64,000 nt of DNA from an uncultured Bacteroidia bacterium (GTDB lineage: Bacteria > Bacteroidota > Bacteroidia > Bacteroidales > Prolixibacteraceae). A model generated the notes under the pieces. The model was given only the letters and a program-made list of their open reading frames with translations, searched no databases and had not been told where the DNA came from. This document shows, in pieces, positions 41,105 through 46,291 of the stretch. Both the position numbers and the translations under genes were made by a program. Location: positions 62,001 to 126,000 of the forward strand of contig CAIVGL010000011.1 in NCBI GenBank assembly GCA_903905505.1. Direction: 5' to 3'. The stretch's first letter is position 1; the number at the start of each line of letters is the position of its first letter.

Positions 41105-41911
41105 CTATTTAGTTGGTATGATGCGATCTTTAATGAGGGCCACATCCTGCTTGAGTTGATTGATCGTATAGGCTAGATCTGCGGAGGTGACTTCCCCCGT
41201 TGGTAGCTCTTCGCTGATGTAGTGGATAAACCGCCAGATCTCACGAATCTCAACAACTGGTAGCTCGTATGGCTTGTAGGTTGGATTTAGAGAGATAAGA
41301 CCAATCTTACCCGTTTTGCTCATTTTATTTTCAATGACTTTAAACACAATACCTTCGTCGAGAGTCAAGACGACACAAGCTTCCCCATCTTTTATGCTCT
41401 TCCAGTCTTGAACGAATTCGCCCGTTATCCAGGCGCCATTTGGTATGGGAAGCATCGAGTCACCACTAATCTGAAAGGTTCTGTATTTTTTTTCGCGGGA
41501 GAGAAATGGAAGTTGAAAGACCGGTAACTGACCGACGAATTCAGGATTTGCAAATCCTCGGGTGTAACCGGCTTTAGCTTTTTCGGTTACTAGCTCTATG
41601 TTGTCTTTATTAGAGCTGTCTACCGTAGTGGTCAAAACTCTCAATTTTGAACCCTTCACAAATACATCAAATCCATTCTCTAGCTGACGCAGTTCACTCT
41701 CTTTTAATTGCGATAAGTCAACTTTAACCAACGTGTCAATAGAGATTCCAAAATAGTCGGAATAAGCAATCATCTGCTGGATGCCTGGTTGCGCTACGCC
41801 ATTCTCGTACCCACTTAGGGTTGGTCGTTTCATCTGTAACGCAAAGGCTACCTCATCTTGCGTACGCCCTCGTCGCTTGCGCATTAACTTGATATTGCTG
41901 TTGAAATACAT
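41105..41911 (-). CDS. XRE/S24 LexA-like self-cleaving repressor
   Basis: 268 residues. The N-terminal ~60 form an XRE helix-turn-helix (RTQDEVAFALQMKRPTLSGYENG). The C-terminal half is an S24 autopeptidase: nucleophile Ser152 in SGDSMLP, general base Lys191 in IVFKVIEN, and a scissile Ala114-Gly115 in KAKAGY. The spacings (A-G to Ser ~38, Ser to Lys 39) are nearly those of LexA and UmuD. It therefore should be a DNA-binding repressor inactivated by RecA-stimulated self-cleavage on DNA damage. It is transcribed divergently from dinB-dnaE across a 158-bp region with two palindromic operator-like sites, so it probably controls those genes and itself. Confidence 0.88.
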   Translation of the reverse strand: MYFNSNIKLMRKRRGRTQDEVAFALQMKRPTLSGYENGVAQPGIQQMIAYSDYFGISIDTLVKVDLSQLKESELRQLENGFDVFVKGSKLRVLTTTVDSSNKDNIELVTEKAKAGYTRGFANPEFVGQLPVFQLPFLSREKKYRTFQISGDSMLPIPNGAWITGEFVQDWKSIKDGEACVVLTLDEGIVFKVIENKMSKTGKIGLISLNPTYKPYELPVVEIREIWRFIHYISEELPTGEVTSADLAYTINQLKQDVALIKDRIIPTK

Positions 41912-41969
41912 CGTGTGATTTATATCATTTTTTTATAATCTTATTACTCTTGCTTGTTGTTTTTGTAAA

Positions 41970-42012
41970 ATAATGATTATATTATAATCGAAATAATGAT
42001 TAAAATATGATC
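41970..42012. promoter_or_regulatory. paired operator-like palindromes for the LexA-like repressor
   Basis: Two 20-bp direct repeats, 41970-41989 and 41993-42012, are identical at 17 of 20 positions and offset by 23 bp, about two helical turns. The first contains a perfect 15-bp palindrome (GATTATA-T-TATAATC, 41975-41989); the second a near match (GATTAAA-A-TATGATC, 41998-42012). The pair is centred almost equally between the two divergent starts (58 and 57 bp away). A further half-site TTAATC lies at 42017-42022. Binding by the adjacent repressor is inferred. Confidence 0.75.
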
Positions 42013-42069
42013 AAAGTTAATCGTTTTTTTCTTAAAACAAAATAGTCAACCAGAAATAAATTATCGGTT

Positions 42070-43314
42070 ATGCAGGAGATTAGTCAGCAATCGAACAAGA
42101 CTATTGTTCATTACGACCTTGATACTTTCTTTGTGTCGGTAGAGCGATTACAAAATAGTCAGCTAATCGGGAAGCCTGTCATTATAGGAGGTGGTTCAGA
42201 TCGGGGAGTAGTGGCTAGTTGTAGCTATGAATCTCGGTTGTTTGGTGTTCGCTCTGGTATGCCCATGAAGTTAGCCCGGCGGTTGTGCCCCGAATCTTTT
42301 CTGATTCGAGGCGATATGGAGCGTTATAGCCATTATTCTAATGTTGTAACACAGATTATTGCAGAACGAGCACCCATCTATGAAAAAGCGTCAATCGATG
42401 AACATTACCTTGATATCACGGGAATGGATCGTTTCTTTGGGTGTATGAAATGGGCTCAAGAACTGCGCCATACCATTGTTAAAGAGTCTGGTTTGCCCAT
42501 CTCTTTTGGCTTATCGGTGAATAAGACAGTCTCTAAAATTGCCACTGGAGAAGCCAAGCCAAGTGGTGAAAAAGAGGTCCCGCAAGGTGTTGTCAGACCA
42601 TTTCTTAATCCACTCTCCATTCGTAAAATACCGATGGTGGGTGCTAAGACCTATTATCTGCTTCGTTCCATGGGGATCGAAACAATTCGGATGCTGACAG
42701 AGATTCCAATGGAGATGATGCAGCAGGTGCTGGGTGAGAATGGGGCTATGATGTGGAAGAAGGCTCATGGAATAGACAATACACCCGTAAAGCCTTATTC
42801 GGAACAGAAATCGATGAGTACTGAGCAAACTTTTGAGCACGACACTACGGATGTTTATTTTCTAGAGCAACTCCTTGTTGGAATGACCGAAAAGCTCGCT
42901 TTTCAACTTCGGAAACAACAAAAAATGACCTCCTGCGTAACGGTCAAAATTAAGTACTCTAATTTTGATACCTATAGTCAACAGTTGCGTATTCCTTATA
43001 CTCAGTTTGATCATACACTGCTTGAAACAGCGAAAGATCTTTTTCGCAAGCTTTATCAACGACGCATGCTAATTCGACTTATTGGCGTTCGCTTTAGTCA
43101 CCTGGTTAGCGGCACTCAGCAACTTGATCTGTTTGAAGATACTTCCGAGCGGGTTAGCCTTTATCAAAGTATGGACCAGATCAGAAGTCGATTTGGCTCA
43201 TCGGCTATCCGTAGGGCTTCTGGATTGGCCGTTCGGCAGGCAATCGACGAGATGAAAATGGCTGCCCCGACAATTCCTTCGAGTCCCTTAATCATTAACC
43301 GAGGATATCATTAA
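42070..43314 (+). CDS. dinB: Y-family translesion DNA polymerase (DinB/UmuC type)
   Basis: 414-residue error-prone polymerase. Palm motifs: metal-binding HYDLDTFFVSVE at the N-terminus and the catalytic Asp-Glu in SIDEHYLDITG, where His replaces the usual Ala or Phe after Glu. Helix-hairpin-helix (IPMVGAKTYYLLRSMGI) and little-finger domains follow. A canonical sliding-clamp motif QLDLF occurs in the C-terminal tail (TQQLDLFED). It is 43 bp upstream of the dnaE gene and downstream of the paired operator sites, so it is probably damage-inducible. The DinB/UmuC/ImuB distinction is not resolved by eye, but an intact active site argues against an inactive ImuB. Confidence 0.92.
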   Translation: MQEISQQSNKTIVHYDLDTFFVSVERLQNSQLIGKPVIIGGGSDRGVVASCSYESRLFGVRSGMPMKLARRLCPESFLIRGDMERYSHYSNVVTQIIAERAPIYEKASIDEHYLDITGMDRFFGCMKWAQELRHTIVKESGLPISFGLSVNKTVSKIATGEAKPSGEKEVPQGVVRPFLNPLSIRKIPMVGAKTYYLLRSMGIETIRMLTEIPMEMMQQVLGENGAMMWKKAHGIDNTPVKPYSEQKSMSTEQTFEHDTTDVYFLEQLLVGMTEKLAFQLRKQQKMTSCVTVKIKYSNFDTYSQQLRIPYTQFDHTLLETAKDLFRKLYQRRMLIRLIGVRFSHLVSGTQQLDLFEDTSERVSLYQSMDQIRSRFGSSAIRRASGLAVRQAIDEMKMAAPTIPSSPLIINRGYH

Positions 43315-43357: not shown

Positions 43358-46291
43358 ATGTTATTCTCTTGTCATACCTATTATAGTTTGCGTTACGGGA
43401 TTATGGATCCTGAAACATTGGTGTTGGAGGCGGTGAAAAATCGTCTGCCAGTGGTCATGATGGCTGATATCAACAATACAACTGGCATCATCGACTTTGT
43501 TAAAGAGTCTTTTAAGCAGGGTATTAAGCCCATTGCTGGAATCGATTTTCGCAATGGTGATCATCATCTGTATACTGGAGTAGCCCGAAATAATGAGGGT
43601 TTTCGCGAGTTAAATGAGTTCTTAACCCTTCACCTGATGCAAAAGCGGCCTTTGCCTGAGATCGCACCTTGCTTTAATCAGGCTTATGTCATTTATCCTT
43701 TTGGAGAAAGGGACGTCAATGAACTGCGTGACAATGAATTTGTGGGGGTTCAGCCATCGAATATTAACAGGCTTCGTTATCTCACGACAAAAAAACATTT
43801 TCATAAACTAGTCGTTTGTCAGCCTGTTACATTCTGCGGAAAATACGATTTCTTACTCCATAAACACCTGCGTGCGATTGATCATAATTTGCTGTTGAGC
43901 AAGATTACTTCAACGCAGATCGGGTGCGAGTCTGATCTGTTCCGTTCATTCGATGAGCTGCTCGTCGCTTTTGCTGATTTTCCAGAGATTCTACAGACGA
44001 CTAAACAGCTGATCGACGATTGCTCAATCACGTTCGATTTCAAGTCGATTAAGAATAAGCAGTGCTTTACAGTCAGTCGCTATGATGATAAATTATTGCT
44101 TGAAAAACTGGCGCTTGATGGATGGAAATACCGCTATGGGAACAATCCAGAAGCTCTGAAAAGAGTGTATCATGAGCTGGAAATCATTGATAAGCTTGGA
44201 TTTTCAGCCTATTTTTTAATCACCTGGGATATTATTCGGTACTCGATGAGTCGGGGATTTTACCACGTGGGAAGAGGTTCTGGGGCAAATTCAATCGTGG
44301 CTTATTGTTTGAAAATAACCGATGTCGATCCGATTGAACTGAACCTTTATTTTGAGCGCTTTTTAAATCCCAAGCGAACCTCGCCTCCCGATTTCGATCT
44401 CGATTTCTCGTGGCGCGACCGTGACGATATTCACGAATATATTTTTAAACGATATGGAAGGAAGCACACCGCTTTGTTAGGGGCCATGAATACTTTTCAG
44501 GGCAAGTCTATATTGCGAGAGCTGGGTAAGGTTTACGGGTTGCCAAAGCATGAAATTGATGCCTTAGCGGAAGAGACTCGGCTGGCAACCACTGGAAGCG
44601 AGCTTTATAAACAGATTTTTTCCGTTGGATCATTGCTGCAGGGGTTTCCAAATTTACGTACGATTCATGCAGGAGGCGTCTTGATCTCGGAAGAACCAAT
44701 CACATGCTACAGTGCATTGGATCTTCCGCCCAAGGGATTCCAGACTACGCAGTGGGATATGTATGTGGCTGAAGATATCGGTTTTGAGAAGCTTGATATT
44801 TTAAGTCAGCGAGGTATTGGACATATCAATGATAGTGTTGGCATTATTCAACGCAATAGAAAGATCAAAGTGGATATTCACCAGGTTAACGAACTTAAAA
44901 ACGATCCGAAAGTTAAGCAACAGCTGAAAATTGGAGAGACGATTGGATGTTTCTATGTCGAGAGTCCGGCGATGCGTGGTTTGCTCAAGAAACTCCAATG
45001 TGACAACTATATCTCCCTAGTCGCTGCTAGCTCGATTATTCGCCCTGGTGTGGCCAAGAGTGGCATGATGCGTGAGTATATTCATCGTTTTCATCACCCT
45101 CAAAGTTTTAGTTATTTGCATCCTGTGATGAAGGAGCAACTGGAGGAGACGTATGGTGTGATGGTTTTTCAGGAAGATGTGCTTAAGGTATGCCACCATT
45201 TTGCCGGTCTTGATCTGGCTGATGCCGATGTGCTTCGTCGTGCGATGAGTGGAAAATTCCGATCAAAACAGGAGTTTCAACGCATCACGGATCGCTTCTT
45301 TGATAATTGTCGTGCATTAGGTCGTCCTGAAGAGACCGCAAAAGAGGTCTGGCGACAGATTGAGAGTTTCGCAGGTTACTCCTTTTCAAAAGCTCACTCT
45401 GCTTCGTATGCTGTTGAGAGCTTTCAGAGTCTTTATCTTAAAGCTCATTATCCATTGGAGTTTATGGTCGCCGTGATTAATAATTTTGGTGGATTCTACC
45501 GAACATGGGTCTATGTCAACGAAGCTAAACGGTGTGGAGGGCAAATAGAATTGCCTTGCGTCAATAAAAGCTTTGATCAGACAACTATTTACGGTAATCA
45601 GATCTATTTAGGGTTTAATTTAGTGGCTAATCTGGAGCATAATTTCCAACATGATCTTGTTTCTGAGCGTACGCAAGGGGGCGAATTTGTCTCTCTTGAG
45701 GATTTCTTGCGGCGTGTTCCTATTGGCATTGAACACTTGATTTTACTCATCAGACTAGGTGCTTTTCGATTTGTAGGTAAGCCCAAAATGCAACTGTTAT
45801 GGGAGGCGCATATGTTATTGAATAAGTCCACTCCAAGTAGATCGAATCAACTGTTTGACCTTCCATCGAAAACGTGGGCCCTGCCAAGCCTTGAGCAGTC
45901 TGCTGTTGAAGCTGCTTACGATGAGTTTGAATTGCTCGGCTTTCCCGTTACGATGAGCTGGTTTGATTTGCTGCACACTCGTTTTCGTGGCGAAGCTTTG
46001 GCTGTTGATTTAGTTCGCTTTATCGGAAAGAAAATCCGGATGGTAGGACTTTTAGTTGCCTTGAAATATGTAAGCACTTCGAATCGTGAATTGATGTATT
46101 TCGCGAGCTTCTTAGATTGTTCTGGTGAATTTTTTGAGACCGTTCATTTCCCTTCTAGCCTAAAGAAATTTCCTTTCTCTGGAAATGGAGTCTATTTGAT
46201 TCTTGGGAAGGTTGTTGCTGAGTTTGGTCATCCGTCTATCGAGGTTGAGAAGCTGGCTAAGCTCCCCGTGCAGGGTGATCCAAGACGATAA
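43358..46291 (+). CDS. short DnaE-type error-prone DNA polymerase III alpha subunit
   Basis: 977-residue C-family polymerase, shorter than replicative DnaE (~1160) and close to DnaE2/ImuC. An N-terminal PHP domain is present but degenerate: FSCHTYYSLRYG, and MMADINNTTG where ALTDHxN is usual, so intrinsic proofreading is likely lost. The palm has GRGSGANSIVAYCL and PDFDLDFSWRDRDDI with the catalytic aspartates; FSKAHSASYAVES and a C-terminal OB fold (KIRMVGLLVALKY) follow. NQLFDLP near residue 829 could be a clamp-binding variant. It lies 43 bp after dinB and ends 1 bp from the convergent LytTR gene. Expected role: extension past lesions together with the Y-family polymerase. Confidence 0.9.
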   Translation: MLFSCHTYYSLRYGIMDPETLVLEAVKNRLPVVMMADINNTTGIIDFVKESFKQGIKPIAGIDFRNGDHHLYTGVARNNEGFRELNEFLTLHLMQKRPLPEIAPCFNQAYVIYPFGERDVNELRDNEFVGVQPSNINRLRYLTTKKHFHKLVVCQPVTFCGKYDFLLHKHLRAIDHNLLLSKITSTQIGCESDLFRSFDELLVAFADFPEILQTTKQLIDDCSITFDFKSIKNKQCFTVSRYDDKLLLEKLALDGWKYRYGNNPEALKRVYHELEIIDKLGFSAYFLITWDIIRYSMSRGFYHVGRGSGANSIVAYCLKITDVDPIELNLYFERFLNPKRTSPPDFDLDFSWRDRDDIHEYIFKRYGRKHTALLGAMNTFQGKSILRELGKVYGLPKHEIDALAEETRLATTGSELYKQIFSVGSLLQGFPNLRTIHAGGVLISEEPITCYSALDLPPKGFQTTQWDMYVAEDIGFEKLDILSQRGIGHINDSVGIIQRNRKIKVDIHQVNELKNDPKVKQQLKIGETIGCFYVESPAMRGLLKKLQCDNYISLVAASSIIRPGVAKSGMMREYIHRFHHPQSFSYLHPVMKEQLEETYGVMVFQEDVLKVCHHFAGLDLADADVLRRAMSGKFRSKQEFQRITDRFFDNCRALGRPEETAKEVWRQIESFAGYSFSKAHSASYAVESFQSLYLKAHYPLEFMVAVINNFGGFYRTWVYVNEAKRCGGQIELPCVNKSFDQTTIYGNQIYLGFNLVANLEHNFQHDLVSERTQGGEFVSLEDFLRRVPIGIEHLILLIRLGAFRFVGKPKMQLLWEAHMLLNKSTPSRSNQLFDLPSKTWALPSLEQSAVEAAYDEFELLGFPVTMSWFDLLHTRFRGEALAVDLVRFIGKKIRMVGLLVALKYVSTSNRELMYFASFLDCSGEFFETVHFPSSLKKFPFSGNGVYLILGKVVAEFGHPSIEVEKLAKLPVQGDPRR

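Follow-up and report, generated by a model that had tools for sequence, protein, structure and literature searches.

Repressors with an S24 peptidase domain undergo RecA-stimulated self-cleavage, which relieves repression, and the dimers of one such protein, lambda CI, cooperate on adjacent OR operators that lie ∼23–24 bp apart. For the non-canonical LexA proteins, the SOS regulators of the Bacteroidetes, the text of Sanchez-Osuna et al. 2021 (PMC8565304) describes two motifs, CTAA-N5-TTAG and GGA-N5-TCC. The same text accepts diverged palindromes within the family, one of which faces an error-prone polymerase gene; the E. anophelis case, with TTAC-AAATT-GTAA, faces an error-prone polymerase gene and is mitomycin-induced. 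At least two sites are described in several SOS promoters (PMC8565304, section 12), the imuA-imuB-dnaE2 cassette is named, and both motif groups are reported to be absent from the Bacteroidales.

The window, i.e., the whole 64-kb stretch of Prolixibacteraceae DNA analysed here, contains a gene for a 268-aa repressor (41105..41911, minus strand) that diverges from the gene of a 414-aa Y-family (DinB/pol IV-like) polymerase (42070..43314, plus strand). The second gene of the cassette (43358..46291, plus strand) encodes, according to domain models, a 977-aa DnaE-like (C-family) polymerase. The repressor matches HTH_3 (PF01381; 4.3e-13) in its N-terminal part and Peptidase_S24 (1.3e-09) in its C-terminal part; the LexA model gave no match at E ≤ 0.001, HTH_3 taking the place of the winged helix of canonical LexA. 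A putative cleavage bond (A114-G115) and a putative catalytic dyad (S152/K191) were located in the protein. The Y-family protein carries the motif SIDE, which we take to have catalytic meaning. No phage genes were recognised by eye among the window ORFs.

The repressor resembles the non-canonical LexA proteins, as these are presented in the text of PMC8565304, by its HTH and S24 domains and, judging from the letters, by its Ala-Gly bond and Ser-Lys dyad, as well as by a predicted operator in its own promoter and a palindrome with a 5-bp spacer. As in the imuA-imuB-dnaE2 cassette under LexA, a Y-family and a DnaE-like polymerase lie under an S24 repressor. However, no gene separates the repressor, Y-family and DnaE-like genes, and therefore no ImuA is present inside the cassette; in addition, unlike the ImuB that the text of PMC6511836 describes as catalytically dead, the window Y-family protein passes the pol IV model cut-off and keeps SIDE, so that neither ImuA nor an inactive ImuB is found in the cassette. 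HdiR (Streptococcaceae) and UmuDAb (Moraxellaceae) are also S24 repressors over mainly error-prone polymerases, as in the window genome, and the text of PMC8565304 assigns them to other clades.

The initial annotation had pointed to two operator-like repeats between these divergent genes, and direct re-reading of the sequence bore this out. Operator 1, ATAATGATTATATTATAATC (41970-41989), is on the repressor side and operator 2, ATAATGATTAAAATATGATC (41993-42012), on the polymerase side; neither is assigned to a strand. The two copies are identical at 17/20 positions, are separated by GAA and are offset by 23 bp start to start. Their location midway between the starts is exact, the ATGs at 41911 and 42070 having their midpoint at 41990.5. 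The first repeat contains, as claimed, the perfect 15-bp palindrome GATTATA-T-TATAATC (41975-41989), and the imperfect palindrome of the second (41998-42012) is off by one base per arm and also at the centre base. A possible further site with 3 mismatches (41926-41940) was rejected, as it is lost in locus L006 and altered in L007. When the 158-bp intergenic region (80% A+T) was submitted to 5000 dinucleotide shuffles, a 17/20 direct repeat at a spacing of 20–60 had p = 0.007 and a palindrome with 7-bp arms p = 0.076. With these values the window taken by itself is suggestive at most, and the decision falls to comparison.

A repressor homologue at E ≤ 1e-20 is present in 126/140 genomes of the window's family. 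From among the matches listed, 129 repressor loci, including that of the window, were taken and sorted by N-terminal signature into groups A1 (22, with the window), A2 (33), A3 (25), B (19), C (17) and D (11), L080 and L086 being set aside as broken or partial. In a search that allowed spacings of 19–28, pairs were found at 20/22 A1, 33/33 A2, 24/25 A3 and 16/19 B loci, and all 93 pairs were at 23 or 24 bp. Because this search fits its own model, held-out tests were made with spacings of 22–25. A matrix trained on A1 retrieved a pair within 300 bp at p ≤ 0.02 at 32/33 A2, 23/25 A3 and 11/19 B loci; at the same limits it did so at 1/16 C and 1/11 D loci. Conversely, a matrix of 73 pairs from the A2, A3 and B relatives, with none from the window's subgroup A1, scored the window pair at 39.8, compared to 14.3 for the best shuffle (p = 0.0002, the floor of the test) and 7.9 for the next unrelated place in the window. 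Held-out matrices also retrieve the pair next to repressors with 49–62% identity, and not in this family alone but in others of the order. At one locus of the family set, L034, the repressor is intact and no pair was found in the first 1000 bp.

The A1 matrix was further applied, with spacings of 18–30, to the best 80 of 502 loci of named genomes, which are mostly MAGs with unchecked names and include 'Bacteroidia' and 'Bacteroidales' bacteria, Prolixibacteraceae, Marinilabiliaceae, Lentimicrobiaceae and Plebeiobacterium. Outside the genus, a pair no more than 300 bp away (p ≤ 0.02) was found at 51/66 of these loci, with a spacing of 23 bp in 42 and of 24 bp in nine; once the training contigs L189, L198 and L201 were removed, 48/63 remained, the spacing being 23 bp in 42 and 24 bp in six. 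Within the genus, where all are training contigs, the pair was found at 10/14 loci. No pair was present within 300 bp at 15/66 loci outside the genus and 4/14 inside, some of these misses being due to the end of a contig or to a long intergenic region (L014 has its pair at a distance of 947 bp). All four loci named Lentimicrobium or Lentimicrobiaceae (L164, L167, L193 and L206) have the pair; NCBI places Lentimicrobiaceae in the Bacteroidales and Prolixibacteraceae in the Marinilabiliales. Finally, a pair profile at E ≤ 1e-4 matched in 7/24 other families of the order, each represented by one genome. The pair is thus conserved upstream of related cassettes across the family and the order, at 23 or 24 bp, as the operator interpretation had predicted for relatives.

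The palindrome had also been offered as a motif for a genome-wide regulon search. In the window genome, the exact 15-mer GATTATAnTATAATC occurs once, and with ≤2 mismatches allowed it was found at 23 places, the reversed control at 21; given this lack of excess, the motif alone shows no regulon there, and the scan as proposed picked out none. What held of the proposal is the pair, whose profile leads to DNA-damage genes in relatives. The word TGATTA-N5-TAATCA occurs at ≤1 mismatch at 18 places of the window genome, two of which are the pair itself; at 13 of the other 16 single-site places, viewed by eye, no DNA-repair gene was recognised. At ≤2 mismatches, the same word gave 293 places in this genome compared to 176 for the reversed control. 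With R1, a sequence-only pair profile built from 27 sequences including the window's, the cassette was retrieved at E 2e-9, followed by the same place reversed (0.28) and then by a value of 0.4; the cassette E value is partly given by construction, the absence of other places is not. The cassette is therefore the only place found for the pair in the window genome (2.9 Mb, 97% complete), in part because no SRAP or rSAM_link_UDG genes are found in that genome. recA was rejected as a target: its ORF starts 14 bp after another ORF, and no pair site was reported on its contig.

A different picture was obtained with the 140 genomes of the family, searched at E ≤ 1e-4 under strict filters with 40 candidates from each genome submitted to scoring. 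The scan returned 98 rows in 78 genomes, corresponding to 96 places distinct by coordinates, 75 at repressor cassettes and 21 elsewhere. Twenty of the 21 non-cassette places are at DNA-damage genes: SRAP (8), dnaE homologues (5), rSAM_link_UDG (3), pol IV (2, both on the cassette contig), umuDC (1) and a UvrD/PcrA-like helicase (1), the last ∼100 bp from the pair with an AI-2E transporter gene on the opposite side. The one exception in the family is a good pair (G078:C232, 5973-6012, L273; E 2e-5) with nothing recognised nearby. Outside the family, a good pair without a recognised DNA-damage gene (G152:C120, 9165-9212, L260; E 7.5e-7) has as neighbours a 101-aa ORF of no family that starts at the site and a DRTGG-domain ORF. 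Two weaker pairs lie beside a sugar transporter and a zinc-ribbon ORF (G153:C186, E 0.005) and beside no recognised family (G116:C436, E 0.01). A smaller search with a looser cut-off added SRAP (G093:C258, G136:C15), rSAM_link_UDG (G132:C59), pol IV (G132:C63, G161:C68) and a dnaE whose start is ∼530 bp from the pair (G152:C140:36678). Among the 27 non-cassette sites measured, a count that leaves aside the places at G152:C120, G153:C186 and G116:C436, 16 were at 23 bp and 11 at 24 bp, a spacing that the profile favours. DinB/DnaE, umuDC, SRAP (COG2135) and COG1573-COG4277 are targets in common with the non-canonical LexA proteins as listed in the text of PMC8565304. Control of canonical SOS genes beyond the repressor's own is suggested by operator sites in the relatives alone.

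SRAP as a general marker was rejected, the pair being present in 0/30 of the best SRAP loci (whole loci scanned, best score 6.8). There are two kinds of SRAP: the 30 best-scoring without the pair, and, in a part of the same genomes, more diverged ones with it. In nine SRAP promoters (L270, L274, L275, L281, L282, L309, L313, L315 and L316), one palindrome ends in the start codon (...AATCATG), and the operator thus covers the translation start.

The anatomy of the pair was tabulated from 138 intergenic regions that remained after five duplicates were dropped, spacings of 23 and 24 alone being tried. A score of 12 was exceeded in 128/138 regions, and 115 non-identical windows, including our own, were retained. 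In these windows, where operator 1 is kept, the consensus of each site is TGATTA, an A+T-rich centre and (A/G)(T)C, and the bases between the sites vary. Beyond the palindrome, a TA is found at +23/+24 of operator 2 (T 77%, A 83% of the 115 windows). The main sigma factor of the Bacteroidota recognises TAnnTTTG at −7 (−12 to −5) and TTTG near −33, as stated in the texts of PMC7366714 and PMC9723704; the text of PMC7366714 reports that a search for the −33 motif in Flavobacterium johnsoniae did not find it. The window has its TA at 42018-42019, as the first two bases of TAATCGTT (42018..42025, plus strand); this putative −7 box for the polymerase gene has TA alone in common with TAnnTTTG. The −33 position is occupied by AATG (41995-41998), within operator 2, and the remainder of both boxes is a poor match. 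On this reading, operator 2 would span about −33 to −17 of the predicted polymerase promoter, which it would thus overlap. A sigma-70 scan returned 2 sites with 1.9 expected, and a search for the repressor promoter in the 115-window table gave nothing convincing. At A and B loci, operator 1 is located between 6 and 947 bp from the repressor start codon. In L319, an IS110-family transposase gene (1322-2137) is present between a subgroup B repressor and the polymerase gene, and the operator pair adjoins the polymerase start.

The operator reading of the repeats is upheld by the pair kept at related cassettes, its spacing there of 23 or 24 bp and its association with DNA-damage genes in relatives. 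The pair is very probably the tandem, auto-regulated operator of the adjacent non-canonical-LexA-type repressor, and the polymerase cassette damage-induced. Each palindrome would be occupied by one repressor dimer, and the two dimers would touch. Through operator 2, placed at about −33 to −17 of its promoter, the polymerase transcript would be repressed; through operator 1, placed over the start region of the repressor gene, the repressor would control its own transcript. DNA damage would then lead, through RecA filaments, to cleavage at A114-G115 and induction of the polymerase cassette. The geometry would fit both cooperative binding and the shutting of both divergent promoters, and a spacing of 23/24 bp is consistent with a cooperative operator of the lambda type. 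As in lambda OR, a protein with a CI-like HTH and an S24 domain faces adjacent operators ∼23–24 bp apart between divergent promoters, with autoregulation; unlike in lambda OR, there are two sites rather than three, and the targets are chromosomal DNA-damage genes.

Alternatively, the repressor might bind each site on its own, non-cooperatively, and promoter elements alone would then dictate the fixed spacing. We consider this unlikely, though more probable than the other alternatives. In its favour, operator 2 is at a fixed distance from the promoter-like TA, and PMC8565304 describes several SOS promoters with at least two sites in a main text in which 'cooperativ' does not occur. However, the spacing of 23/24 bp persists although operator 1 may be as near as 6 bp or as far as 947 bp from the repressor start, and it is found in 27/27 of the non-cassette sites measured, a figure biased by the profile.

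The adjacent repressor and the pair are linked by position and conservation, a link that would also be compatible with another regulator binding between the two genes while the HTH-S24 repressor acts elsewhere. This is very improbable in view of how protein clades and operator words match. When 47 selected proteins were placed in a midpoint-rooted tree, which carries a long-branch warning for the D rows, single branches set A2, A3, B, C and D apart from the rest, but not A1. The A groups have the word TTGATTA, with TGATAA as the second site in A3; B has TGACTA/TGACGA; C has TTGTTA-N7-TAACAA at 15/16 loci; and D has the published CTAA-N5-TTAG at 4/11 loci. Clades A1/A2, A3, B and C thus each have their own word beside their own gene, even when paralogues share a genome: several genomes hold more than one repressor group, e.g., G037 with A3 (L064) and B (L089). 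More than anything else, this match of clade to word points to the adjacent repressor as the protein that binds the pair. The presence of the published word in clade D also argues against a different regulator, as does the position of most remote sites at DNA-damage genes, where an S24 repressor would be expected to act.

The putative cleavage and catalytic residues A114, G115, S152 and K191 are invariant in 25/25 A-group and 19/19 A-to-D proteins chosen and aligned. The aligned A, C and D proteins have a tail of ∼35 residues behind the S24 domain (window 41105-41218). Subgroup B lacks this tail and still has the 23-bp pair. In subgroup C, a model-free test gave 23 as the best direct-repeat spacing at 16/16 loci; the mixed spacings of the fitted search (23 at 6/16, the rest at 19, 20, 21 or 28) were rejected, as the choice of start codon had removed the first site. 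The C loci L096-L106, L108, L109 and L111-L114 encode ∼40%-identical paralogues, with TTGTTA-N7-TAACAA and its repeat 23 bp away upstream of the repressor; the ORFs that C repressors face (L101, L098) have 249-251 aa, with a start resembling that of ImuA, and 498 aa. In subgroup D, canonical sites are 19 bp apart in L095, L110 and L132, and the ORF facing the repressor in L095 begins, by eye, like rSAM_link_UDG. The published (CTAA-N5-TTAG) and the new specificity therefore coexist within one family.

Being inverted, the repeats might also fold as a hairpin in RNA or DNA (a terminator, attenuator or origin) rather than serve as a protein-binding site, but this is less probable still: no terminator-like pattern was found, 41800-42200 contains no Rfam family, the site is between divergent starts, its arms are A+T-rich and a second copy follows at a fixed spacing. 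A chance repeat in A+T-rich intergenic DNA, or the leftover similarity of close relatives, has only the p values of the window alone in its favour (0.076 for the palindrome, 0.007 for the repeat) and can be dismissed, since 0/5000 shuffles reach the window's score and held-out matrices retrieve the pair from other families of the order as well as next to repressors of 49–62% identity.

The predicted operator specificity of the repressor differs from both published motifs: TTGATTA-N5-TAATCAA is found here, in a tandem pair at 23/24 bp, instead of those given in the text of PMC8565304. CTAA-N5-TTAG is present in 0/80 and GGA-N5-TCC in 1/80 A-group loci (first 150 bp). As the text of PMC8565304 accepts diverged palindromes, this mismatch sets the repressor outside the two named subgroups but does not remove it from the family. 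The main text of that paper contains no mention of Marinilabil-, Prolixibacter-, Draconibacter- or 'cooperativ', and a partial literature search found no other work on the SOS motif of these clades, although it may stand among the diverged palindromes of Table S10 of PMC8565304. In our best reading, the specificity TTGATTA-N5-TAATCAA lies outside both motifs of PMC8565304, in clades that its main text leaves unnamed or, for the Bacteroidales, reports without the regulator.

Taken more broadly, the balance of evidence tips slightly towards an obligate two-dimer SOS box, with palindromes locked at 23/24 bp, that controls DNA-damage genes in the Marinilabiliales and Bacteroidales, Lentimicrobiaceae included. 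Its paralogous repressors would have radiated in words (TTGATTA, TGATAA, TGAC[TG]A, TTGTTA) and kept the geometry, giving several insulated damage-response circuits per cell. If true, the two-dimer SOS box would extend to an order, the Bacteroidales, that the text of PMC8565304 reports without these regulators. The paired-site geometry outlives changes of the operator sequence, and the same geometry with different words, and with paralogues in one genome, provides a natural series for the evolution of repressor specificity. With the pair as a profile, SOS-type control can be sought across a large environmental clade left unnamed in the main text of PMC8565304. The pair also suggests which genes turn on mutagenesis in these organisms: most likely, it keeps mutation-causing polymerases off until DNA damage occurs in a large group of environmental Bacteroidota.
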